Positions 18,947-58,517 of a DNA stretch of 64,000 bases are shown piece after piece. The stretch covers positions 434,001 through 498,000 of the forward strand of contig NZ_JAYMGZ010000001.1 of the NCBI RefSeq assembly GCF_037078405.1. Direction: 5' to 3'. Position numbers and translations under genes: made by a program. The notes beneath the pieces are model-generated. The model was not told the origin of the DNA. It ran no database searches and saw only the letters and a program-made list of their open reading frames with translations. Position 1 is the stretch's first letter. Every line of letters begins with the position of its first letter. Origin of the DNA: Haloarcula sp. DT43 (lineage in GTDB: Archaea; Halobacteriota; Halobacteria; Halobacteriales; Haloarculaceae).

Positions 18947-19647
18947 TATCGGTCAGCGACCTGCGGTACCGCTACGGCGACGTTGCCGTCCTCGACGGGG
19001 TCACGCTGTCGATACCCGACGGCCAGTTCTGCCTGCTCGTCGGCCCGAACGGGAGCGGCAAGACGACGCTCGTCCGGCACTTCAACGCTCTGCTGACGCC
19101 GGAGTCCGGGACCGTCACCGTCGACGGGACCGACGTGACCGACGACCCCGTCGTCGCCCGGACCCGCATCGGGATGGTGTTCCAGCACCCCCGCGACCAG
19201 TTCGTCGCCGCGACCGTGGCCGCCGACGTGGCCTTCGGCCCGGAGAACCTCGGGCTCGACCGCGCCGAAATCGACCGCCGGGTCGACGCGGCGCTCGCGG
19301 CTGTCGACCTCGACGGGATCGGGGACAGGCGCATCGACGCCCTCTCGGGCGGCGAGCAGGCCCGCGTCGCCATCGCCGGGGCCCTCGCCATGGAGCCGGA
19401 CTACCTCGTGCTCGACGAACCGCTCGTCGGACTCGACTGGCCGGCCAGGGAGTCGGTGCTCGACCACCTCGACGCGCTGGCCGCCGACGGGACCGGCGTC
19501 GTCGTCGTCACTCACGACCTGCGGGACCTCCACGAGCGGGCCGACCGCGTCGTCGCCTTACACGAGGGGCGGGTCGCCCTCGACGAGTCGCCGGCGGACG
19601 CGCTCGACTCGTTGCCGGCCCTCGGCGTCCGGGACCCGCGATGCTGA
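18943..19647 (+). CDS. bioM: ECF transporter ATP-binding subunit (BioM/CbiO type)
   Basis: A 234-residue ABC ATPase starting MISVSDLRYRYGDVAVLDG. Walker A is GPNGSGKTTL (about residues 31-40), the Q-loop is in VFQHPRDQFVA, the signature is LSGGEQARVAIAGAL and Walker B is YLVLDEPLVGLDW. The start overlaps the bioY stop (ATGA) and the end overlaps the EcfT start by seven bases, so the three subunits are translationally coupled. A longer upstream frame is antiframe of bioY and is rejected. Confidence 0.94.
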   Translation: MISVSDLRYRYGDVAVLDGVTLSIPDGQFCLLVGPNGSGKTTLVRHFNALLTPESGTVTVDGTDVTDDPVVARTRIGMVFQHPRDQFVAATVAADVAFGPENLGLDRAEIDRRVDAALAAVDLDGIGDRRIDALSGGEQARVAIAGALAMEPDYLVLDEPLVGLDWPARESVLDHLDALAADGTGVVVVTHDLRDLHERADRVVALHEGRVALDESPADALDSLPALGVRDPRC

Positions 19648-24543: not shown

Positions 24544-26730
24544 ATGGGCCGACGTAAGAAAATCGTCCAGGAATGTGAGACACTGATGGACGACCCGGAG
24601 CACATCCGGAACATCGCCATCGCTGCTCACGTCGATCACGGAAAGACGACACTGACGGACAATCTGCTGGCCGGTGCCGGCATGATTTCCGACGACACCG
24701 CCGGCGAACAGCTGGCGATGGACACCGAGGAAGACGAACAGGAACGCGGTATCACCATCGACGCGGCCAACGTCTCGATGACCCACGAGTACGAGGACCA
24801 GAACCACCTCATCAACCTCATCGACACCCCCGGCCACGTCGACTTCGGTGGCGACGTGACCCGCGCGATGCGTGCCGTCGACGGCGCGCTGGTGGTCGTC
24901 GACGCCGTCGAGGGCGCGATGCCCCAGACCGAGACGGTGCTCCGGCAGGCCCTGCGCGAGGGCGTCAAGCCGACGCTGTTCATCAACAAGGTCGACCGCC
25001 TCATCTCCGAGCTCCAGGAGGGGCCCGAGGAGATGCAGGAGCGCCTGCTCGCGGTCATCCAGGACGTCAACGACCTCATCCGCGGCATGACCGAAGAGAT
25101 GGACGACATCGAGGACTGGACGGTCTCCGTCGAGGAAGGGACCGTCGGCTTCGGCTCCGCGCTGTACAAGTGGGGCGTCTCGATGCCGTCGATGCAGCGG
25201 ACCGGCATGGACTTCGGCGAAATCATGGAGCTCGAACGCAACGACAAGCGCCAGGAACTCCACGAGCGCACGCCGCTGTCCGACGTGGTTCTGGACATGG
25301 TGTGTGAACACTTCCCGAACCCCGTCGACGCTCAGCCCCGCCGTGTCCCGCGTATCTGGCGTGGCGACGCCGAGTCCGAACTCGCAGAGGACATGCGGCT
25401 GGTCAACGAGGACGGCGAAGTCGTCCTGATGGTCACCGACATCGGCGTTGACCCCCACGCCGGCGAGATCGCCGCCGGCCGTGTCTTCTCCGGCACGCTG
25501 GAGAAGGGTCAGGAGCTGTACGTCTCCGGGACCGCTGGCAAGAACCGCATCCAGAGCGTCGGCATCTACATGGGTGGCGAGCGCGAGGAAGTCGACCGCG
25601 TCCCCGCCGGCAACATCGCCGCCGTCACGGGCCTCAAGGACGCCATCGCCGGCTCTACCGTTTCCAGCGTCGAGATGACTCCCTTCGAGTCCATCGAGCA
25701 CATCTCGGAGCCGGTCATCACGAAGTCCGTCGAGGCACAGAACATGGACGACCTGCCGAAGCTCATCGAGACGCTCCAGCAGGTCGCCAAGGAAGACCCG
25801 ACCATCCAGGTCGAAATCAACGAGGACACCGGCGAGCACCTCATCTCCGGCCAGGGCGAACTGCACCTGGAAGTCATCGGCCAGCGCATCGAGCGCAACC
25901 AGGGCATCCCGATAAACACCGGTGAGCCCATCGTCGTCTACCGCGAGGCCCCACAGAGCGAGAGCCGCGAGGTCGAGGGCATCTCGCCGAACCGCCACAA
26001 CCGCTTCTACATCTCCGTCGAGCCGCTTGGCGACGACATCGTCGAGACCATCAAGATGGGCGAGGCGTCGATGGACATGCCCGAACTGGAGCGCCGTGAA
26101 GCGCTGCAGGAGGCCGGCATGGACAAGGACGACTCCCAGAACATCGAGCACATCCACGGGACCAACATCCTCCTCGACGAGACGAAGGGGATTCAGCACC
26201 TCAACGAGACGATGGAGCTCGTCATCGAGGGCCTCGAAGAGGCGCTTGACGACGGGCCGCTCGCCTCCGAGCCGGTCCAGGGCTCCCTGCTGCGCCTCCA
26301 CGACGCCCGTCTCCACGAGGACGCCATCCACCGCGGTCCGGCTCAGGTCATCCCCGCGGTGCGTGAGGCCGTCCACAACGCGCTCATCGACGCACGCATC
26401 AAGCTCCTGGAGCCGATTCAGGAGGTCCGCATCGACGTGCCCAACGACCACATGGGTGCCGCGAGCGGCGAGATTCAGGGCCGCCGTGGCCGCGTCGACG
26501 ACATGTACCAGGAAGGCGACCTGATGGTCGTCGAGGGCGTCGCGCCCGTCGACGAGATGATCGGCTTCTCCTCCGACATCCGCTCGGCCACCGAGGGCCG
26601 CGCCTCCTGGAACACCGAGAACGCCGGCTTCCAGGTTCTCGCCGACAACCTCCAGCCCGACAAGATCAGCGAGATTCGCGAGCGTAAGGGCATGAAGCAG
26701 GAACTCAACCCGGCCATCGACTACTTCTAG
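24544..26730 (+). CDS. fusA: translation elongation factor 2 (aEF-2)
   Basis: The 728-residue translocase GTPase. G1 is AHVDHGKTT (residues 28-36), G3 is DTPGHVDF and G4 is NKVD. Domain IV contains [13 protein letters not shown], in which His596 is the residue converted to diphthamide in archaea and eukaryotes. The C terminus ends [17 protein letters not shown], typical of archaeal EF-2. The start [20 protein letters not shown] fits the family. The gene normally sits next to rps7; here it has its own promoter and is followed by a run of hairpins. Confidence 0.98.
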
Positions 26731-26749
26731 ACCACCTTTTTCCGGTTCG

Positions 26750-26770
26750 GGTGAGCGCACAGCGCTCACC
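26750..26770. terminator. perfect hairpin with three-base loop after EF-2
   Basis: GGTGAGCGC (26750-26758) and GCGCTCACC (26762-26770) pair fully around the loop ACA, 20 bp after the EF-2 stop. It lies between two convergent genes, so it may act in 3'-end formation or mRNA protection. A T-rich run (CCTTTTT) precedes it. Confidence 0.5.
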
Positions 26771-26799
26771 ACTCACCGCAAAAACGTGGGCGAAAAAGG

Positions 26800-26822
26800 C
26801 GCGAATCGCGAGGCGATTCGCG
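26800..26822. repeat. perfect hairpin with three-base loop
   Basis: CGCGAATCGC (26800-26809) and GCGATTCGCG (26813-26822) pair perfectly over ten bases around the loop GAG. It is the second of three hairpins in 100 bp between EF-2 and the convergent M48-like gene. Confidence 0.55.
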
Positions 26823-26827
26823 GGAAA

Positions 26828-26848
26828 CCGCGCGCCGGCGGCGCGCGG
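26828..26848. repeat. perfect GC hairpin with three-base loop
   Basis: CCGCGCGCC (26828-26836) and GGCGCGCGG (26840-26848) pair perfectly around the loop GGC. It is the third hairpin of the run and the one nearest the 3' end of the M48-like gene on the other strand. Confidence 0.55.
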
Positions 26849-26894
26849 TACGCTCGTCGTCCCGTTCTGCTCTCGTTCCGCTACAGCAACGGTT

Positions 26895-27998
26895 TTACTC
26901 CGCCGCTTGCTCCCGCAATCGGTCGATTCGGTTCCCCAGCGGCGGCGACTTCGAGAACGGGTTGGCGAACCGTCGCCGGGACGGCTCCATGTCGTGGACG
27001 GCGGCGTACCGTTCGAGTGCGTCGGCGACGGCATCCGGGCCGACGCGGTCGGCCGCGTGGTCGTCGGCCGCGCGGACGCCCCGTCGGGCGACCCACAGGC
27101 TTCCCACGACGAGGCCGAGGCTCACGCCGACGAGGGGCCACAGCGGGCCGACATCGGCCAGTGCCACGAACAGCGGGACCAGCGTGAGGAGCAGGCCCCC
27201 GACGACCCGGGCGAGCACCCGGGCGTCCTGGCGGCCGGCCTGGACCGCGAGCAGGGCCGTCGCCGTCTCGTCGTCGAACGCGTCGAGGAACGTGCTCGTC
27301 ACGAACAGACGACGGTAGCCCGGGACCCCGCGGACGGTCGTGTCCGCCATCTCCTCCCGGTCGGTGTCGAGAATCCGAACGTCCCGGACCGTCAGTCCCG
27401 CCCGCTCCCGGAGGCGATTCAGCGTCGCTCCGGTCGACTCGTCCGGTCTCCGCACGGACCGAACGACCGGGATAATCCAGGGGGCCGCGGCCTGCACGGC
27501 GACGACGAGCACGGCGACGGCGGCCAGCAGGACGACCGACGGCAGTCCGGTTTCGAGCGGTGCGATGACGACCGTCGCGAAAACCGATAGCCCGAGGACG
27601 TACCGCCCCATCCGGGCGAGCGCCCGGCCGGTCGAGAGCTCGATGTCCCGGACGCTGCGGACGCCCCGAACCGTCGGCGCGTACGCAGCCAGTCCGACAG
27701 CGCCCGCGACGAGCAGTTCGATGAACGTCGCCAGCAGCGTGCCGACCGTTCCTGTCCCTCCGCCGGCCACTGCGTAGCCGAACCCGAGCAGTCGAAAGAC
27801 GGCGTACGACAGCAGGGCGAACGGGAGCAGGACCCCGAGGTACAGCTGCCGATACCTGGCGACGGGGTTCGAGAGTCGCTGTACGATTGCGCTGCCGAGC
27901 GCGCCGAGGGAGAGGCCGATGACGGCGAGGACGACGACGAGGAACACTGCCGTACCGACCGCTATCGGAGGGGACTGGAGGGCGTACACGCATGACAT
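26895..27998 (-). CDS. M48-peptidase-like membrane protein lacking the catalytic motif
   Basis: A 367-residue protein starting MSCVYALQSPPIAVGTAVFL. Five or so membrane helices fill the first 190 residues, then a soluble domain resembling the CAAX-prenyl protease/HtpX (M48) fold: LRERAGLTVRDVRILD, GVPGYRRLFVTSTFLDAFDD and the closing SPPLGNRIDRLREQ. Where active M48 enzymes have HExxH directly after a TSTFLDAFDD-like helix, this protein reads TATALLAVQAGRQD, and the third zinc ligand region is RAADDHAADR. So it is probably a non-catalytic homologue. Two more membrane helices follow. Function unknown. Confidence 0.75.
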   Translation of the reverse strand: MSCVYALQSPPIAVGTAVFLVVVLAVIGLSLGALGSAIVQRLSNPVARYRQLYLGVLLPFALLSYAVFRLLGFGYAVAGGGTGTVGTLLATFIELLVAGAVGLAAYAPTVRGVRSVRDIELSTGRALARMGRYVLGLSVFATVVIAPLETGLPSVVLLAAVAVLVVAVQAAAPWIIPVVRSVRRPDESTGATLNRLRERAGLTVRDVRILDTDREEMADTTVRGVPGYRRLFVTSTFLDAFDDETATALLAVQAGRQDARVLARVVGGLLLTLVPLFVALADVGPLWPLVGVSLGLVVGSLWVARRGVRAADDHAADRVGPDAVADALERYAAVHDMEPSRRRFANPFSKSPPLGNRIDRLREQAAE

Positions 27999-28093
27999 GC
28001 TTCGCCGTTGCGCAAAAAACGTAGCGCTCCGCCGGCAGTCCCTGTCACGTCGGGACCCCACGCTTAGGTCGCCCGGCACCGAACGGGCAGGGT

Positions 28094-34355: not shown

Positions 34356-35636
34356 GTGCGGCTGGTACAGCTACTGATTCCGACCGGGAAGCGCGACGCC
34401 GTCCTGGGCGTGTTGGCCGACGAGGGCATCGACTACGTGCTCACGGACGAGACGAGCGGGCGGGAGTACACCGCCGTCGTTACCTTCCCGGTTCCGACGA
34501 ACGCGCTCGAACCAGTCCTCGAGGAGCTGCGGAGCGTCGGCATCGACGACGACGGCTACACCGTCGTCGTGGACGCGAACACCGTCATCTCCAGCCAGTT
34601 CGACGAACTGGAGGAGACCTACGCCGAGGAGGAAGACGAGGACCGCATCGCGCGGGAGGAACTCACCTCGAAGGCGAAGGACCTCGCCCCGTCACTGTCG
34701 AACTACGCGCTGATGACCGTCATCAGCGCGATTATCGCGACCGCGGGGCTCCTGCTCGACTCCCCGGCGGTCGTCGTCGGCTCGATGGTCATCGCCCCGC
34801 TCATCGGGCCGGCGATGACTGCCAACGTCGGGACCGTCGTCGACGACCACGAGATGTTCGTCCGCGGCGTCAAACTCCAGGCCGTCGGGCTCGGACTCGC
34901 CGTCACGAGCGCGACGGCGTTCGCCCTGCTCGTCCGGTACGCCAACGTCATCCCGCCGCTCGCCGACGTGACCGCGGTCGGGCAGATACGCGAGCGGGTC
35001 GCCCCCGACTTCCTCTCGCTGGTCGTCGCGCTCGGTGCCGGCGCGGCCGGCGTCGTCAGCCTCACGAGCGGCGTCTCGACGGCGCTGGTCGGCGTCATGA
35101 TCGCCGTCGCGCTCATCCCGCCGGCGGCGACGGTCGGCATCGGCATCGCCTGGGGCCAGCCGCTCGTCAGCCTCGGCTCCGCCGTGCTCCTGCTCGTGAA
35201 CGTGCTCTCTATCAACCTCGCGGTGCTGGTCGGGCTCTGGTACCAGGGCTACCGCCCGGAACACTGGTTCCGGGAGAGCGACGCCCGGTCGGCGACGGTC
35301 AAACGCATCGGCGTCCTCGCCCTGTCGATACTCGTCCTCTCGGCGTTCCTCGGTGGGGTGACCTTGGACTCCTACCAGCGAGCGGCGACGGAGTCCGACA
35401 TCCGGGAGGGCATCGAGGGGAACGTCGACCCGCCGGCCCGCGTGTTGTCGGTGGAGGTCGAATCGACGAACACCGCGATTTTCCAGCAGCCCCGCCGCGT
35501 CGTCGTCACCGTCGGCCTGCCGCCGGACGCACAGCGGCCGCCGCTGGTCGACCGACTCGACGCCGTGGCCGACGAGGCCGCCGGCCGCGACGTCGTGACC
35601 GAGGTCCACTACGTCACCGTCGAACGGAGCGGCTGA
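34356..35636 (+). CDS. DUF389 (TIGR00341-type) membrane protein
   Basis: A 426-residue protein with GTG start (TATA box at the right distance). Residues 1-110 are a soluble domain (RLVQLLIPTGKRDAVLGVLA), followed by a charged linker and about six membrane helices carrying family motifs ALMTVISAIIATAGLLLDSP, VGSMVIAPLIGPAMTANVG, GVMIAVALIPPAATVGIGIA and LLLVNVLSINLAVL. The C-terminal 90 residues are again soluble. The family is widespread in archaea and bacteria; function unknown. Confidence 0.9.
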   Translation: MRLVQLLIPTGKRDAVLGVLADEGIDYVLTDETSGREYTAVVTFPVPTNALEPVLEELRSVGIDDDGYTVVVDANTVISSQFDELEETYAEEEDEDRIAREELTSKAKDLAPSLSNYALMTVISAIIATAGLLLDSPAVVVGSMVIAPLIGPAMTANVGTVVDDHEMFVRGVKLQAVGLGLAVTSATAFALLVRYANVIPPLADVTAVGQIRERVAPDFLSLVVALGAGAAGVVSLTSGVSTALVGVMIAVALIPPAATVGIGIAWGQPLVSLGSAVLLLVNVLSINLAVLVGLWYQGYRPEHWFRESDARSATVKRIGVLALSILVLSAFLGGVTLDSYQRAATESDIREGIEGNVDPPARVLSVEVESTNTAIFQQPRRVVVTVGLPPDAQRPPLVDRLDAVADEAAGRDVVTEVHYVTVERSG

Positions 35637-54941: not shown

Positions 54942-57032
54942 TCAGCCGTCCGCCGCCGGCACGACGACGACATCTTCGACCGAAACCGTCCCGTCGCTAC
55001 TGACCAGATTGCCACTGAGAAGGTCGGTGTCCCCGACCGGGGTATCCAGTGAGACCGACGCCGCCCCGTCGCCGAAGTGCAGGACGACGACCAGCGTCTC
55101 GTCGTCGTCGGTGCGCTCGTAGGCGACGACGCGGTCCCCGTCGCCGGTGTCGACGGCGTGCGAAACCGATGTCATTCCTGGTGCGCGCAGGGCGGCGTGG
55201 TCGTCCCGCAGCGCCACCAGCCGTCGGTGGAACTCCGTGAGGTCGGCGTCGCCGTCGTGCCAGCGCATCGTCCCGCGCTGGCGCTCGACGCCGCGCTCCT
55301 GGCCGGCGTATATCATCGGCGTCCCGGGGAGCGTGAACACTGCTCCGACGGCCGCCCGCAGCGGCGCGGCCCCACACTCCTCGAGGTAACGGTCCTCGTC
55401 GTGGTTGTCGACGTAGCGCATGTGGCCGGTGCGGTCGGGGTAGCCCCGCTCGACCGATTCGTCGAGGGCGCCGAACAGCGCCGACACCGGCTCGTCGCCC
55501 CGGCCCACGTCGCGGAGCGAGTCGAACAGGTCCGTGTCGTAGTGGAGGTCGAACTCGTTTTCCGCGAAGGCGGCGTCGCGCGGGACCGTCTCGTCGAGCA
55601 GCAGGAACTCGGGGTCGTCGGCTTTCACCCGCTCGCGGACCTCCTTCCAGAACCCGTGTGGGACGCCCCAGGCCACGTCACAGCGGAAGCCGTCGACCAC
55701 GTCGCGCCACTCCTCGACCACGTCGAGCATCCAGCGGCGGACGGCCGGCGAGTCGTAGTTGAGGTTCGGGATGTGCGTCCAGTTGAAGTAGTACCCCGGG
55801 GCGTCCTCGCCGGCCCAGTCGACGCCGGAGAGGTCGCGCTCGGCCGGGACGCGCTCGTAGTAATCGGCGTACTCTGGGACGCCCGCCCGGTGGAGCTGGA
55901 AGGCCGGGTGGTCCCGCGAGCTGTGGTTGATGACCAGGTCGAAGACGACCCGGATTCCCGCGTCGTGGAGCCGGTCGACCAGCGACTCGAACTCCCGGCG
56001 CGTCCCCAGGTCCGCGGCGGTGTCGAAGAAGTCCGTGATGTGGTAGCCGTGCCGGGTCGGACTCGCCTGGACGGGCGTGAGCCACACCACGTCGACCCCC
56101 AGCGACTCGATGTAGGGGACCCGCCGCTCGATGGCCTCGAAAGTGGTGGCGACGGTCTCGCCCGCGAACGACCGGACGAATATCTCGTAGATGGTGGCGT
56201 CGCCGGTCCAGGCCGGCGGGTCGGCCGGCCGTGAGACGGCCAGTGTGTCGCCTGCGCTCGTCTCCCCGCCCCCGGTCCTGCCGTCGCGCTCCACGACCAG
56301 CGTGTCAGAGACGCTGTGGCGCTCGGCGACGGCGACCGCGTGAATCCGGGCCGTCTCGGGAAGGGCCTCGCGTGGGACCCGGAGTTCGTCGCCGTCGACG
56401 GTCACGGCTGACTCCGCCAGCGTGTCTCGGCCGTCGAGATGGAACTCCACCGCCGGCTCGCTTCCCGACGGGGCCGCGCGGACGTGCGCAGAGACGACGA
56501 GGTCCCCGTCGACGCGGTCGCCGGCGAGTTCGACCCCCGGCCGACCGGGTCCCTCGACGGTGACTTCGTCGGTCGCAGTCGCCTCGAAGGAGCCGTCGAA
56601 ACTGAAGATAGCGTGGTGGGTCCCCGGCGGCAGGTCGGCCTCGACGACCCACTCGTCGCCGTCGCGTTCGGCCCAGTGTGTCCCCATCGTGAAGTCGTTG
56701 AACTTCCCGATGACGACGGCGCGGTCGGCGACGGCGAGGTCCTCGGCCCCGAAGTCGTCTTCGGTAACGCTGAACCGGACGGTCTCGGTGACGGCCGGGA
56801 ACGCCCGCACGACCTGCTCGTGCGTCTCGCCGGCGATAGACACCGCCGCCCGGTACACGCCCGGAACGTCGGGGTTGAGGTGACAGACCGGACCGTCACC
56901 GAGCGTCGCCGTACTCCCCGCTGGCCGCTCGACCAGCTCCCACTCGGCGGCCACGTCGGGGTCGGGCCGGCGCGGCGCCAGTTCGACCGGGTCGCCGACG
57001 GCGGCGAACCGCGGCGGGCCTGGATGGTGCAT
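54942..57032 (-). CDS. GH13 alpha-amylase/cyclomaltodextrinase-like hydrolase
   Basis: A 696-residue enzyme starting MHHPGPPRFAAVGDPVELAP, without a signal peptide. Residues about 1-260 contain beta-sandwich modules, including a possible CBM48-like unit (FNDFTMGTHWAERDGDEWVV). The GH13 barrel begins near 285 (WTGDATIYEIFVRSFAG) and shows region I VVFDLVINHSSRDHP, region II DGFRCDVAWGVP with the nucleophile Asp, region III FLLLDETVP with the acid Glu and region IV YVDNHDED. It probably opens imported oligo- or cyclodextrins in the cytoplasm. The ATG at 57032 is preferred over upstream in-frame codons in the promoter region. Confidence 0.91.
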   Translation of the reverse strand: MHHPGPPRFAAVGDPVELAPRRPDPDVAAEWELVERPAGSTATLGDGPVCHLNPDVPGVYRAAVSIAGETHEQVVRAFPAVTETVRFSVTEDDFGAEDLAVADRAVVIGKFNDFTMGTHWAERDGDEWVVEADLPPGTHHAIFSFDGSFEATATDEVTVEGPGRPGVELAGDRVDGDLVVSAHVRAAPSGSEPAVEFHLDGRDTLAESAVTVDGDELRVPREALPETARIHAVAVAERHSVSDTLVVERDGRTGGGETSAGDTLAVSRPADPPAWTGDATIYEIFVRSFAGETVATTFEAIERRVPYIESLGVDVVWLTPVQASPTRHGYHITDFFDTAADLGTRREFESLVDRLHDAGIRVVFDLVINHSSRDHPAFQLHRAGVPEYADYYERVPAERDLSGVDWAGEDAPGYYFNWTHIPNLNYDSPAVRRWMLDVVEEWRDVVDGFRCDVAWGVPHGFWKEVRERVKADDPEFLLLDETVPRDAAFAENEFDLHYDTDLFDSLRDVGRGDEPVSALFGALDESVERGYPDRTGHMRYVDNHDEDRYLEECGAAPLRAAVGAVFTLPGTPMIYAGQERGVERQRGTMRWHDGDADLTEFHRRLVALRDDHAALRAPGMTSVSHAVDTGDGDRVVAYERTDDDETLVVVLHFGDGAASVSLDTPVGDTDLLSGNLVSSDGTVSVEDVVVVPAADG

Positions 57033-57242
57033 GTCCCTACGGTGCGCGGTCGGTACTGTGAGTGTTACGCTTCCGAAAAACGTCTGAAAATATATTACCT
57101 CAATTCTAATCACGGTCCGCAGTCGGCGAAACCGCCACACTGCGGGGCGGTTCCCCGGCACGGTCTGGAATCTATCATCATTGTCCCCTCTCATTTCCGA
57201 ATGATTTAAGTTGTGAACGACTATTTCATCGCATATCTATCC
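57033..57242. promoter_or_regulatory. divergent promoter region of amylase and malE
   Basis: The TATA-like block TAATATATTTT (57089-57099, reverse strand) serves the amylase with a leader of about 30 nt. For malE the best candidate is ATTTAAGT (57204-57211). An inverted repeat ATCATT (57177-57182) / AATGAT (57200-57205) overlaps the malE box. TGAAAATATATTAC (57085-57098) is shared with the GH15 promoter. A TrmB-type or other regulator may bind here; not proven by sequence. Confidence 0.45.
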
Positions 57243-58517
57243 ATGACGATGGAACGACGGACGATACTCAAGCGAATCGGCGGCGTCGGGGCGACTGCGG
57301 CCGTAGCCGGCTGCAGCGTCCGAGAGCAGGGCGGCGACGGGTCGGGCGGGGGAGCGGCGTCCGGCGACGGCGCGGCCGACGACGAAAGCGGCGCGAGCCA
57401 GGGCGGGACCGCGACGGCGTGGTACCAGCTCCAAGACTCGGAGATTCCCGCGCGGGAGGCCGCGATGGAGACGTTCACCAGCGAGACGGAGTTCGCCGTC
57501 GACGGGTCGGACATCTCCGACATGGAGAAAAAGACCACGAGCGCGATTCCGGCCGGGCAGGGGCCGGAGATATTCGAGTGGGCGCACGACTGGGTCGGCG
57601 ACTACTACCAGCGGGAGTTCGTCGTCGACCAGTTCGAGGCCCTCTCCGTGAGCCTAGACCAGTTCACGGACGCCGCGGCCTCCGCCGTCCAGTTCGACGA
57701 CGCCGTCGTCGGCCTCCCGCACTCGGCGGAGACGGTGACGCTCATCTACAACGCGGACATCGTCGACGAGGCTCCCGAGACGGTCGAGGACATGGTGGCG
57801 GCGATGGAGGACTACCACGACCCGAGCAGCAGCCAGTACGGCCTCGCCGCGCCGTTCAATCCGTACTTCACGAGCGGCTGGATTCAGGCCTTCGGGGGCT
57901 ACTACTTCGACCCGGACCAGGACCCGGCGCTCGGGCTCGACGCCGCCGAAGCCGTCGAGGGACTCCAGTTCGCCCTCGACACGCTCCGGCCGTACATGCC
58001 CGACGACCCGAACTACGAACCGCAGGCCGCGACCTTCTCGGAGGGCAACGCCGCCTTCGCGGTCAACGGGCCGTGGTACCTGGCGACGCTGAACCAGAAC
58101 GACGTGAACTACGAGGTGGCGACGTTCCCCGACATCGACGGCGGCGAGGTGACGCCCTACACCGGCATCTCGATGTGGTACTTCGCGGACGCGATGAGCG
58201 AGGGCGGGGCCGACGCGACGGCTGCGCGGAACTTCGTCGAGTGGTTCGCCACAAACGAGGACCACGCAACGCGACTCGCCGAGGAGCAGGGCGCGATTCC
58301 GGTCCTCGACAGCCTCGTCGGCAGTGACGAACTCCCCGCCCACGTCCGGACGTACTCCCAGACGGTCAGCCAGGGGGTTCCGATGCCGACCGACCCCCGC
58401 ATGAACAAGGTCTGGGCCCCGCTCGAGAACGCCCTCATCGAGGCGTTCAACGGCGACGCGAGCGCCGAAGACGCACTGACGACCGCCGCCGAGGAAATCC
58501 GCAGCAACTGGGAGTGA
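57243..58517 (+). CDS. malE: ABC transporter substrate-binding lipoprotein (malto-oligosaccharide type)
   Basis: A 424-residue exported protein. The N terminus MTMERRTILKRIGGVG contains a twin-arginine signal and ends in lipobox AAVAGC, so it is Tat-exported and lipid-anchored. A Gly/Asp-rich linker precedes a family 1 solute-binding fold: AMETFTSETEFAV, GQGPEIFEWAHDWVGDY, GLPHSAETVTLIYN, YGLAAPFNPYFTSGWIQAFG and FAVNGPWYLATL. The malto-oligosaccharide ligand is inferred from neighbours (amylase, GH15, MalK). It begins the malE-F-G operon. Confidence 0.92.
   Translation: MTMERRTILKRIGGVGATAAVAGCSVREQGGDGSGGGAASGDGAADDESGASQGGTATAWYQLQDSEIPAREAAMETFTSETEFAVDGSDISDMEKKTTSAIPAGQGPEIFEWAHDWVGDYYQREFVVDQFEALSVSLDQFTDAAASAVQFDDAVVGLPHSAETVTLIYNADIVDEAPETVEDMVAAMEDYHDPSSSQYGLAAPFNPYFTSGWIQAFGGYYFDPDQDPALGLDAAEAVEGLQFALDTLRPYMPDDPNYEPQAATFSEGNAAFAVNGPWYLATLNQNDVNYEVATFPDIDGGEVTPYTGISMWYFADAMSEGGADATAARNFVEWFATNEDHATRLAEEQGAIPVLDSLVGSDELPAHVRTYSQTVSQGVPMPTDPRMNKVWAPLENALIEAFNGDASAEDALTTAAEEIRSNWE

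Follow-up and report, generated by a model that had tools for sequence, protein, structure and literature searches.

The three hairpins behind the EF-2 gene of Haloarcula sp. DT43 are parts of a single folded unit of 118 bases (26732-26849 of the window, the whole stretch of 64,000 nucleotides analysed), and this element is a member of a dispersed, structure-conserved, presence/absence-variable gene-end family in haloarchaea. From the layout of its tracts and stems we think it fairly probable that this copy of a dispersed, recombining gene-end element acts as a bidirectional transcription terminator. The original prediction had dealt with the hairpins of this gap; their membership in a dispersed family whose T5 and A5 tracts are conserved goes beyond it.

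Anatomy of the element behind EF-2

The EF-2 gene, whose domains were recognised by Pfam, ends on the plus strand with the stop codon TAG (26728-26730), one base ahead of an element whose layout reads CCACC-T5-variable hairpin 1-A5-CGTGG-GCGAAAAAGG-hairpin 2-hairpin 3. The outer arm CCAC (26732-26735, plus strand) has its partner in the GTGG at 26786-26789. On the EF-2 sense strand follows a T5C tract (26737-26742, plus strand), a T-rich tract of the kind expected of an archaeal intrinsic terminator, located 6 nt 3' of the stop codon and proposed as the EF-2 terminator. Hairpin 1 (26750-26770; 9 bp, loop ACA), the sequence of which varies among species and copies, is enclosed by a 4-bp stem, CGGT/ACCG (26743-26746 with 26775-26778), across an internal loop TCG/ACTC. 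Then come A5-C-GTGG (26780-26789), with the minus-strand reading CCACGTTTTT, and GCGAAAAAGG (26790-26799), whose minus-strand reading, CCTTTTTCGC, provides a T5C immediately 3' of hairpin 2. Hairpin 2 (26800-26822, loop GAG) and hairpin 3 (26827-26849, loop GGC) have 10 bp each. The minus strand carries two T5 tracts between hairpins 2 and 1, and the plus strand has a T5C directly ahead of hairpin 1. When 26731-26850 was folded, both strands gave z = -6.13, and none of 200 shuffles folded as well.

The placement of the hairpins between convergent genes was correctly predicted, EF-2 ending at 26730 (plus) and the next ORF at 26895 (minus). This convergent ORF (26895-28079, minus strand) had no Pfam match, and its transcript would enter hairpin 3, hairpin 2, the T5C and the T5 in that order. 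The perfect stems and the loops ACA, GAG and GGC were found as described, except that hairpin 3 has 10 bp and not 9, the lengths having been given as 9, 10 and 9 bp. The idea that the arrangement exceeds a simple U-tract terminator also holds. Across the family, the layout is CCACC-TTTTT, a 4-bp stem with an internal loop TCG/RCTC and the variable hairpin 1, then AAAAA-CGTGG-GCGAAAAAGG and hairpin 2; in many copies hairpin 2 is followed by (TGAAACC)-hairpin 3-GGTATGC.

A dispersed family with covarying stems

The window contains ten triloop stems with 8 or more perfect base pairs, and three of these fall in the EF-2 gap inside 100 bp. Such stems were also counted in a 464-kb sample of the genome, made up of the window plus 20 pieces, each 20 kb long, that were set at round coordinates across three contigs; none of these pieces contains any other of the 18 element copies of this genome. 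Genes were assigned by our own codon-usage caller, trained only on the Haloarcula sp. DT43 genome and applied to other genera too. Coding DNA of the sample held 26 such stems, with no excess over the 17-35 of five dinucleotide shuffles. The 59 convergent gaps held three, all in the EF-2 gap, against a mean of 0.2 and a maximum of 2 in 20 shuffles, while tandem gaps held three (shuffled 0.8, maximum 3) and divergent gaps none (shuffled 0.4). A genome-wide habit of triloop hairpins is thus rejected. The proposed refuting comparison has a mixed outcome: the stems are at chance in coding DNA and, of the sampled convergent gaps, confined to this one, yet they are retained in many related genomes. 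At 34706-34730 of the window there is an 11-bp perfect triloop stem that exceeds all three stems of the EF-2 gap, and the T5/A5 frame was not found there. A consensus terminator scan of the region returned three hits, one of them hairpin 2, against 2.2 in shuffles, with no regional excess.

Searching the genome with 26600-27000 revealed ten further places of 75-88% identity, in which the similarity falls within 26720-26860 and lies outside both genes save for the last EF-2 bases. A structural model was built from 24 ungapped cores, two of them derived from EF-2 gaps; the E-values of this model (R1) are rough. Its 24 matches in the own genome represent 18 distinct loci, six being read on both strands. 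Across the genus Haloarcula 31 of 32 genomes match, and across the order at least 251 of the 293 sampled, with 19 candidates scored in each genome such that element counts per genome are lower bounds. In a phylum-wide sample 42 of 294 genomes match, all of them in Halobacteriales and none outside the order. In one genome (G289, contig C1) the same tandem array stands at 56511-58030 and at 3341575-3343095, near both contig ends; it is probably the untrimmed overlap of a circular assembly, so that the copy counts of G289 are likely inflated.

Known families were searched as well. With Rfam 15, only two tRNAs reached the gathering threshold in the whole window, and the best score in 26690-26900 was Xoo5 (E 0.76, 15 bits vs a threshold of 50), so that a known RNA family is rejected. 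ARAGORN also called a tRNA-Pro at 19109-19199 of the window that is absent from the results of the Rfam tRNA model and is probably false. A scan of viral contigs with the core pattern gave two matches, in loci of about 41% GC whose DNA resembles a different, AT-rich hairpin, and a viral origin is rejected as far as this single scan shows. A plasmid search gave four haloarchaeal records that match about half of the element, and in the open-licence literature we recognised nothing as the 118-base hairpin element.

Among the 24 cores, 92.5% of the cells pair, against 82.2% when shuffled, and 46 cells are changed on both sides, against 15.0. The covariation score is 0.237 (shuffled mean 0.075, 0/500 as high; 0.012-0.087 when slid); further pair types are not raised (13 vs 13.6 shuffled). 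At the orthologous EF-2 gap of Haloarcula species, hairpins 2 and 3 are kept together with the T5/A5 frame, and the sequence of hairpin 1 is different. In 508 kb covering 80 named haloarchaeal EF-2 loci, the model matches the gap directly behind EF-2 in 26, a number that leaves aside divergent arms visible by eye and overlooked by the model (for example at L077, L080, L082, L086 and L087), and elsewhere in just three places. Read by eye, the outer arm covaries as well, its forms in the EF-2 gaps listed including CCAC/GTGG, CGAC/GTCG, CCAT/ATGG, GAAC/GTTC and GTA/TAC, and the gaps without the element among those listed include Halomicroarcula rubra and Haloarcula pellucida. Stem sequences vary almost freely, with pairing retained, among copies as well as at the orthologous EF-2 gap. 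The suggestion that structure rather than sequence is selected, or kept by a process, is supported by the covariation among copies and by an EF-2 gap whose anatomy is kept with other stems; the compensatory changes looked for in related species are seen as stems and arms that differ between species within a conserved anatomy.

Gene ends, duplications and empty sites

We collected 137 elements by pattern and similarity, a non-random set whose members all had to fold on the plus strand with at least the stability of -10 kcal/mol. Among the 82 without a duplication, 63 have a plus-strand gene on the left; the distance from its stop codon to CCACC has a median of 1 bp and quartiles of 1-4, and the EF-2 copy belongs to this class with an adjacent stop codon. 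On the right, the end of a minus-strand gene lies at a median of 129 bp 3' of GTGG in the duplication-free class (n = 54); in the duplication class the stop of the right-hand gene lies at a median of 40 bp 3' of GTGG (n = 52), past hairpins 2 and 3. Five of the eight duplication-free copies of the own genome start -1 to +2 bp from a called stop codon, and C4:291, beside a contig end, starts at a stop codon too by eye. The remaining two are C1:369297 and a copy near the RNase P RNA, C2:65412 (L002:1543-2093), which ends about 40 bases 5' of that RNA (RF00373, L002:1643-2093, plus strand). The copy C2:715622 precedes the start of a GFO/IDH/MocA-type gene, which makes three neighbours identified, together with EF-2 and hisF. 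In L006:1430-1640 (GFO/IDH/MocA oxidoreductase) and in L073, from two species, the duplicate is the 5' end of the gene and the element lies between the displaced and the real start.

Direct duplicates of the adjacent gene's end flank 29 of the first 59 elements, 55 of the 137 and 10 of the 18 own copies. In 54 of the 55, the distance between the end of the left duplicate and CCACC is 0-9 bp. The aligned length is 32-236 bp (quartiles 56/80/95), 51 duplicates having 129 bp or less and four 132-236. Where the right-hand stop could be placed (43/55), the similarity starts at most 7 bases from the stop in 25 and extends 10-37 bases past it in 18; in the examples read, the latter arises because the left copy also holds hairpin-2-like DNA. 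In the flank score list, 29 of 59 elements score 29 or more and the remaining 30 score 14 or less. A control that aligned the left flank of one element with the right flank of another (3422 pairs) gave scores of up to 106, with 15 and 41 as the 95th and 99th percentiles; this high tail is due to orthologous loci in the set, so our evidence is the break between the two groups of scores, together with the empty sites.

Such sites were found at two genes, counting lax-pattern matches without a duplicate (11 of the 30 hisF loci, and L255) as lacking the duplicate. The first gene was identified as hisF by Pfam His_biosynth and by its sequence. Of its 30 loci, those of the own genome (G000) and G302 are filled, that of G298 is decayed, and the other 27 are without the duplicate. 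In G230, where the gene is 97% identical, the same downstream DNA is joined straight to the gene with neither element nor duplicate. At the second gene, the duplicate is present in 14 of 30 orthologous loci and missing from 16, the same junction being found in the filled G157 and G218 and in the empty G201. Within a genome, the identity of the two copies is 0.61-1.00 in the 14 loci (10 of them at 0.89 or more), compared with averages of 0.77-0.82 between genomes, and being closer within than between genomes the duplicates have been either homogenised or newly made. Besides G298, a decayed copy exists in G238, and L252, scored as empty (score 18), looks decayed by eye. Filled and empty sites would fit either gain or precise loss by recombination between the duplicates.

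Further loci bear on the process. The breakpoints in what seems to be one gene differ between L041 and L074, suggesting separate events. What seems to be a single gene end is duplicated at an identical breakpoint in the Haloarcula loci L182 and L188 and in L218, from a different genus of the family, and this points to an old event or a hot spot. In tandem arrays n elements are accompanied by n+1 duplicates (L065). A search of the open-licence literature found no recombination process duplicating gene ends in haloarchaea.

The dispersed copies, the sharp CCACC boundary set by the left duplicate, the clean empty sites at hisF and the second gene, and the decayed copies would all be expected of a miniature mobile repeat (MITE, SMR or REP-like) that is selfish and does nothing for its host, whose bias toward gene ends reflects the loss of other insertions and whose duplications are target-site duplications restoring the gene. 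The outer arms of the element are inverted repeats. However, the short target duplication of fixed length by which MITEs are defined was not found: 55 of 137 elements have duplicates and these align over 32-236 bp, and so greatly exceed, both in length and in variability, the 5, 8 and 10 bp reported to be most common for Halobacterium transposons (PMC3119063). No transposase or autonomous partner appeared in one viral-contig scan and one plasmid search, and the stem covariation and the retention at EF-2 across genera suggest constraint. We regard a purely selfish repeat as unlikely.

Several known repeats resemble the element in part. Bacterial REPs have a conserved sequence and are tied to RAYT transposases. 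The element shares with them its many dispersed extragenic palindromes (18 loci in the own genome), whereas its stem sequence is free and its T5/A5 tracts are fixed. The roles proposed for REPs, which are likewise small extragenic palindromes, are termination and mRNA stabilisation (PMC3733652). The SMR-A repeats of Haloquadratum walsbyi, of which a genome can have as many as 54 copies, are reported to have no transposase of their own and to make no target duplications, their targets being near-terminal palindromes of IS605/PATE elements. SMR-A is similar in its size of about 110 bp, its inverted repeats, its haloarchaeal host, its many copies and its lack of a transposase, and differs from the EF-2-type element with its place at gene ends and its long duplications in 10/18 own copies (PMC3119063). 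PATEs, the IS605-derived repeats, likewise share palindromes near the termini and the lack of a transposase gene, but they are listed there without target duplications, unlike the EF-2-type element (PMC3119063).

Proposed role in termination and alternatives

In Haloferax volcanii, an inserted T5C is reported to terminate 95% and a hairpin motif 59% in a reporter, 503 of 1,543 termination sites have a hairpin on their upstream side, and the termination sites as a whole give no clear accessibility signal (PMC7237163). With a T5C offered to the EF-2 side and the series hairpin, hairpin, T5C, T5 to the convergent gene, we read the element as a bidirectional terminator. RNA polymerase leaving EF-2 would stop six bases past the stop codon, at the T5C, whereas polymerase arriving from the convergent gene would traverse hairpins 3 and 2 and stop at the T5C/T5, and hairpin 1 would hold the two tracts face to face and block read-through in both directions. 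Recombination, whether of one copy with another or of one flanking duplicate with the other, may spread and renew the copies, as suggested by the wholesale swapping of hairpin 1 between species at the same site.

T tracts were counted in the sampled genes and in the family. On the sense strand of 433 genes, TTTTT is concentrated just behind stop codons, with 15 occurrences in the first 20 nt (0-19) and 8 in the next 20 (20-39), against 4 in the final 200 nt of the genes, and AAAAA occurs 1 and 4 times in the same first two 20-nt bins. In the 137 elements, a C follows the left T tract in 99 and a minus-strand T5C is present in 115. TTTTTC within 100 nt of the stop was found for 11 of the 433 genes only, so that the genome has no general need for such a device. 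The terminator reading accounts neither for the long duplications nor for their boundaries. It is also at odds with the own copies C2:715622, ahead of a gene start, and C2:65412, near the 5' end of RNase P RNA, and with the absence of a regional excess in the consensus terminator scan.

An RNA working from one strand should favour one mismatch over its mirror, so the mismatches in the stems were counted. Hairpin 1 stems (n = 116) have 904 Watson-Crick cells, 10 G-T, 9 A-C and 2 other (925 in total), and hairpin 2 stems (n = 72) have 693, 5, 7 and 1 (706 in total). A control of six tRNAs only, taken from the sampled loci, had 123 Watson-Crick, 11 G-T and 0 A-C in 134 pairs; ARAGORN itself permits only G-U among mismatches. 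The stem finder penalises mismatches and their low number is partly built in, so that only the equality of G-T and A-C is evidence. G-T and A-C equally rare are as expected if the RNAs of both strands need pairing, and the absence of a G-U bias fits a DNA-level role equally well.

Such a role would be that of palindromes extruded as cruciforms or recognised by a nuclease, a recombinase or a nucleoid protein, with pairing kept by hairpin-templated repair and not by RNA function. Scored stems that are about 98% Watson-Crick with no preference for G-T over A-C, where the tRNAs have 11 and 0, and duplications and tandem arrays that imply recombination at the element are consistent with a device of this kind. 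Nevertheless, a cruciform needs neither T5 on both strands nor placement 1 bp after stop codons, and we consider this explanation quite improbable. A 3'-UTR element of RNA stability or processing, or a small RNA, read from one strand, has the strong fold of both strands in its favour but is very improbable: the mismatches have no strand bias, no Rfam family matches, and the T5C at the EF-2-side entry would end the RNA ahead of hairpin 1. Chance hairpins in GC-rich DNA, the level at which coding DNA holds such stems, are refuted by the three stems of a single gap, where shuffling predicts 0.2 for the 59 convergent gaps combined, by the dispersed homologous copies and by the covariation, and retain practically no probability.

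For the bidirectional terminator that we favour, the closest known relatives are the T-stretch terminators and the SMR-A repeats of Haloquadratum. The former, as mapped in Haloferax volcanii, are alike in the T5C shortly after a stop codon and in hairpins upstream of termination sites; the element differs from them by T tracts on both strands bracketing a covarying hairpin, by forming a dispersed repeat family and by its gene-end duplications (PMC7237163). More tentatively, we raise the possibility of order-wide mobile bidirectional terminators in Halobacteriales, in which a module with fixed T5/A5 and exchangeable stems would install itself at stop-codon ends, often duplicating the last 30-130 bp such that the gene is restored with a new terminator, and would be removable by recombination between the duplicates. 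As each genome offers many natural copies of constant anatomy, and close relatives offer empty sites, the roles of T tracts and hairpins can be tested one by one. To our knowledge, the origin of archaeal terminators and the insulation of convergent genes in compact genomes seem little studied. The duplications, with their ends at stop codons or close by, hint that haloarchaea have a recombination process of this kind, and if the order-wide proposal is true, there would be a DNA-rearrangement route for gaining, losing and swapping terminators.
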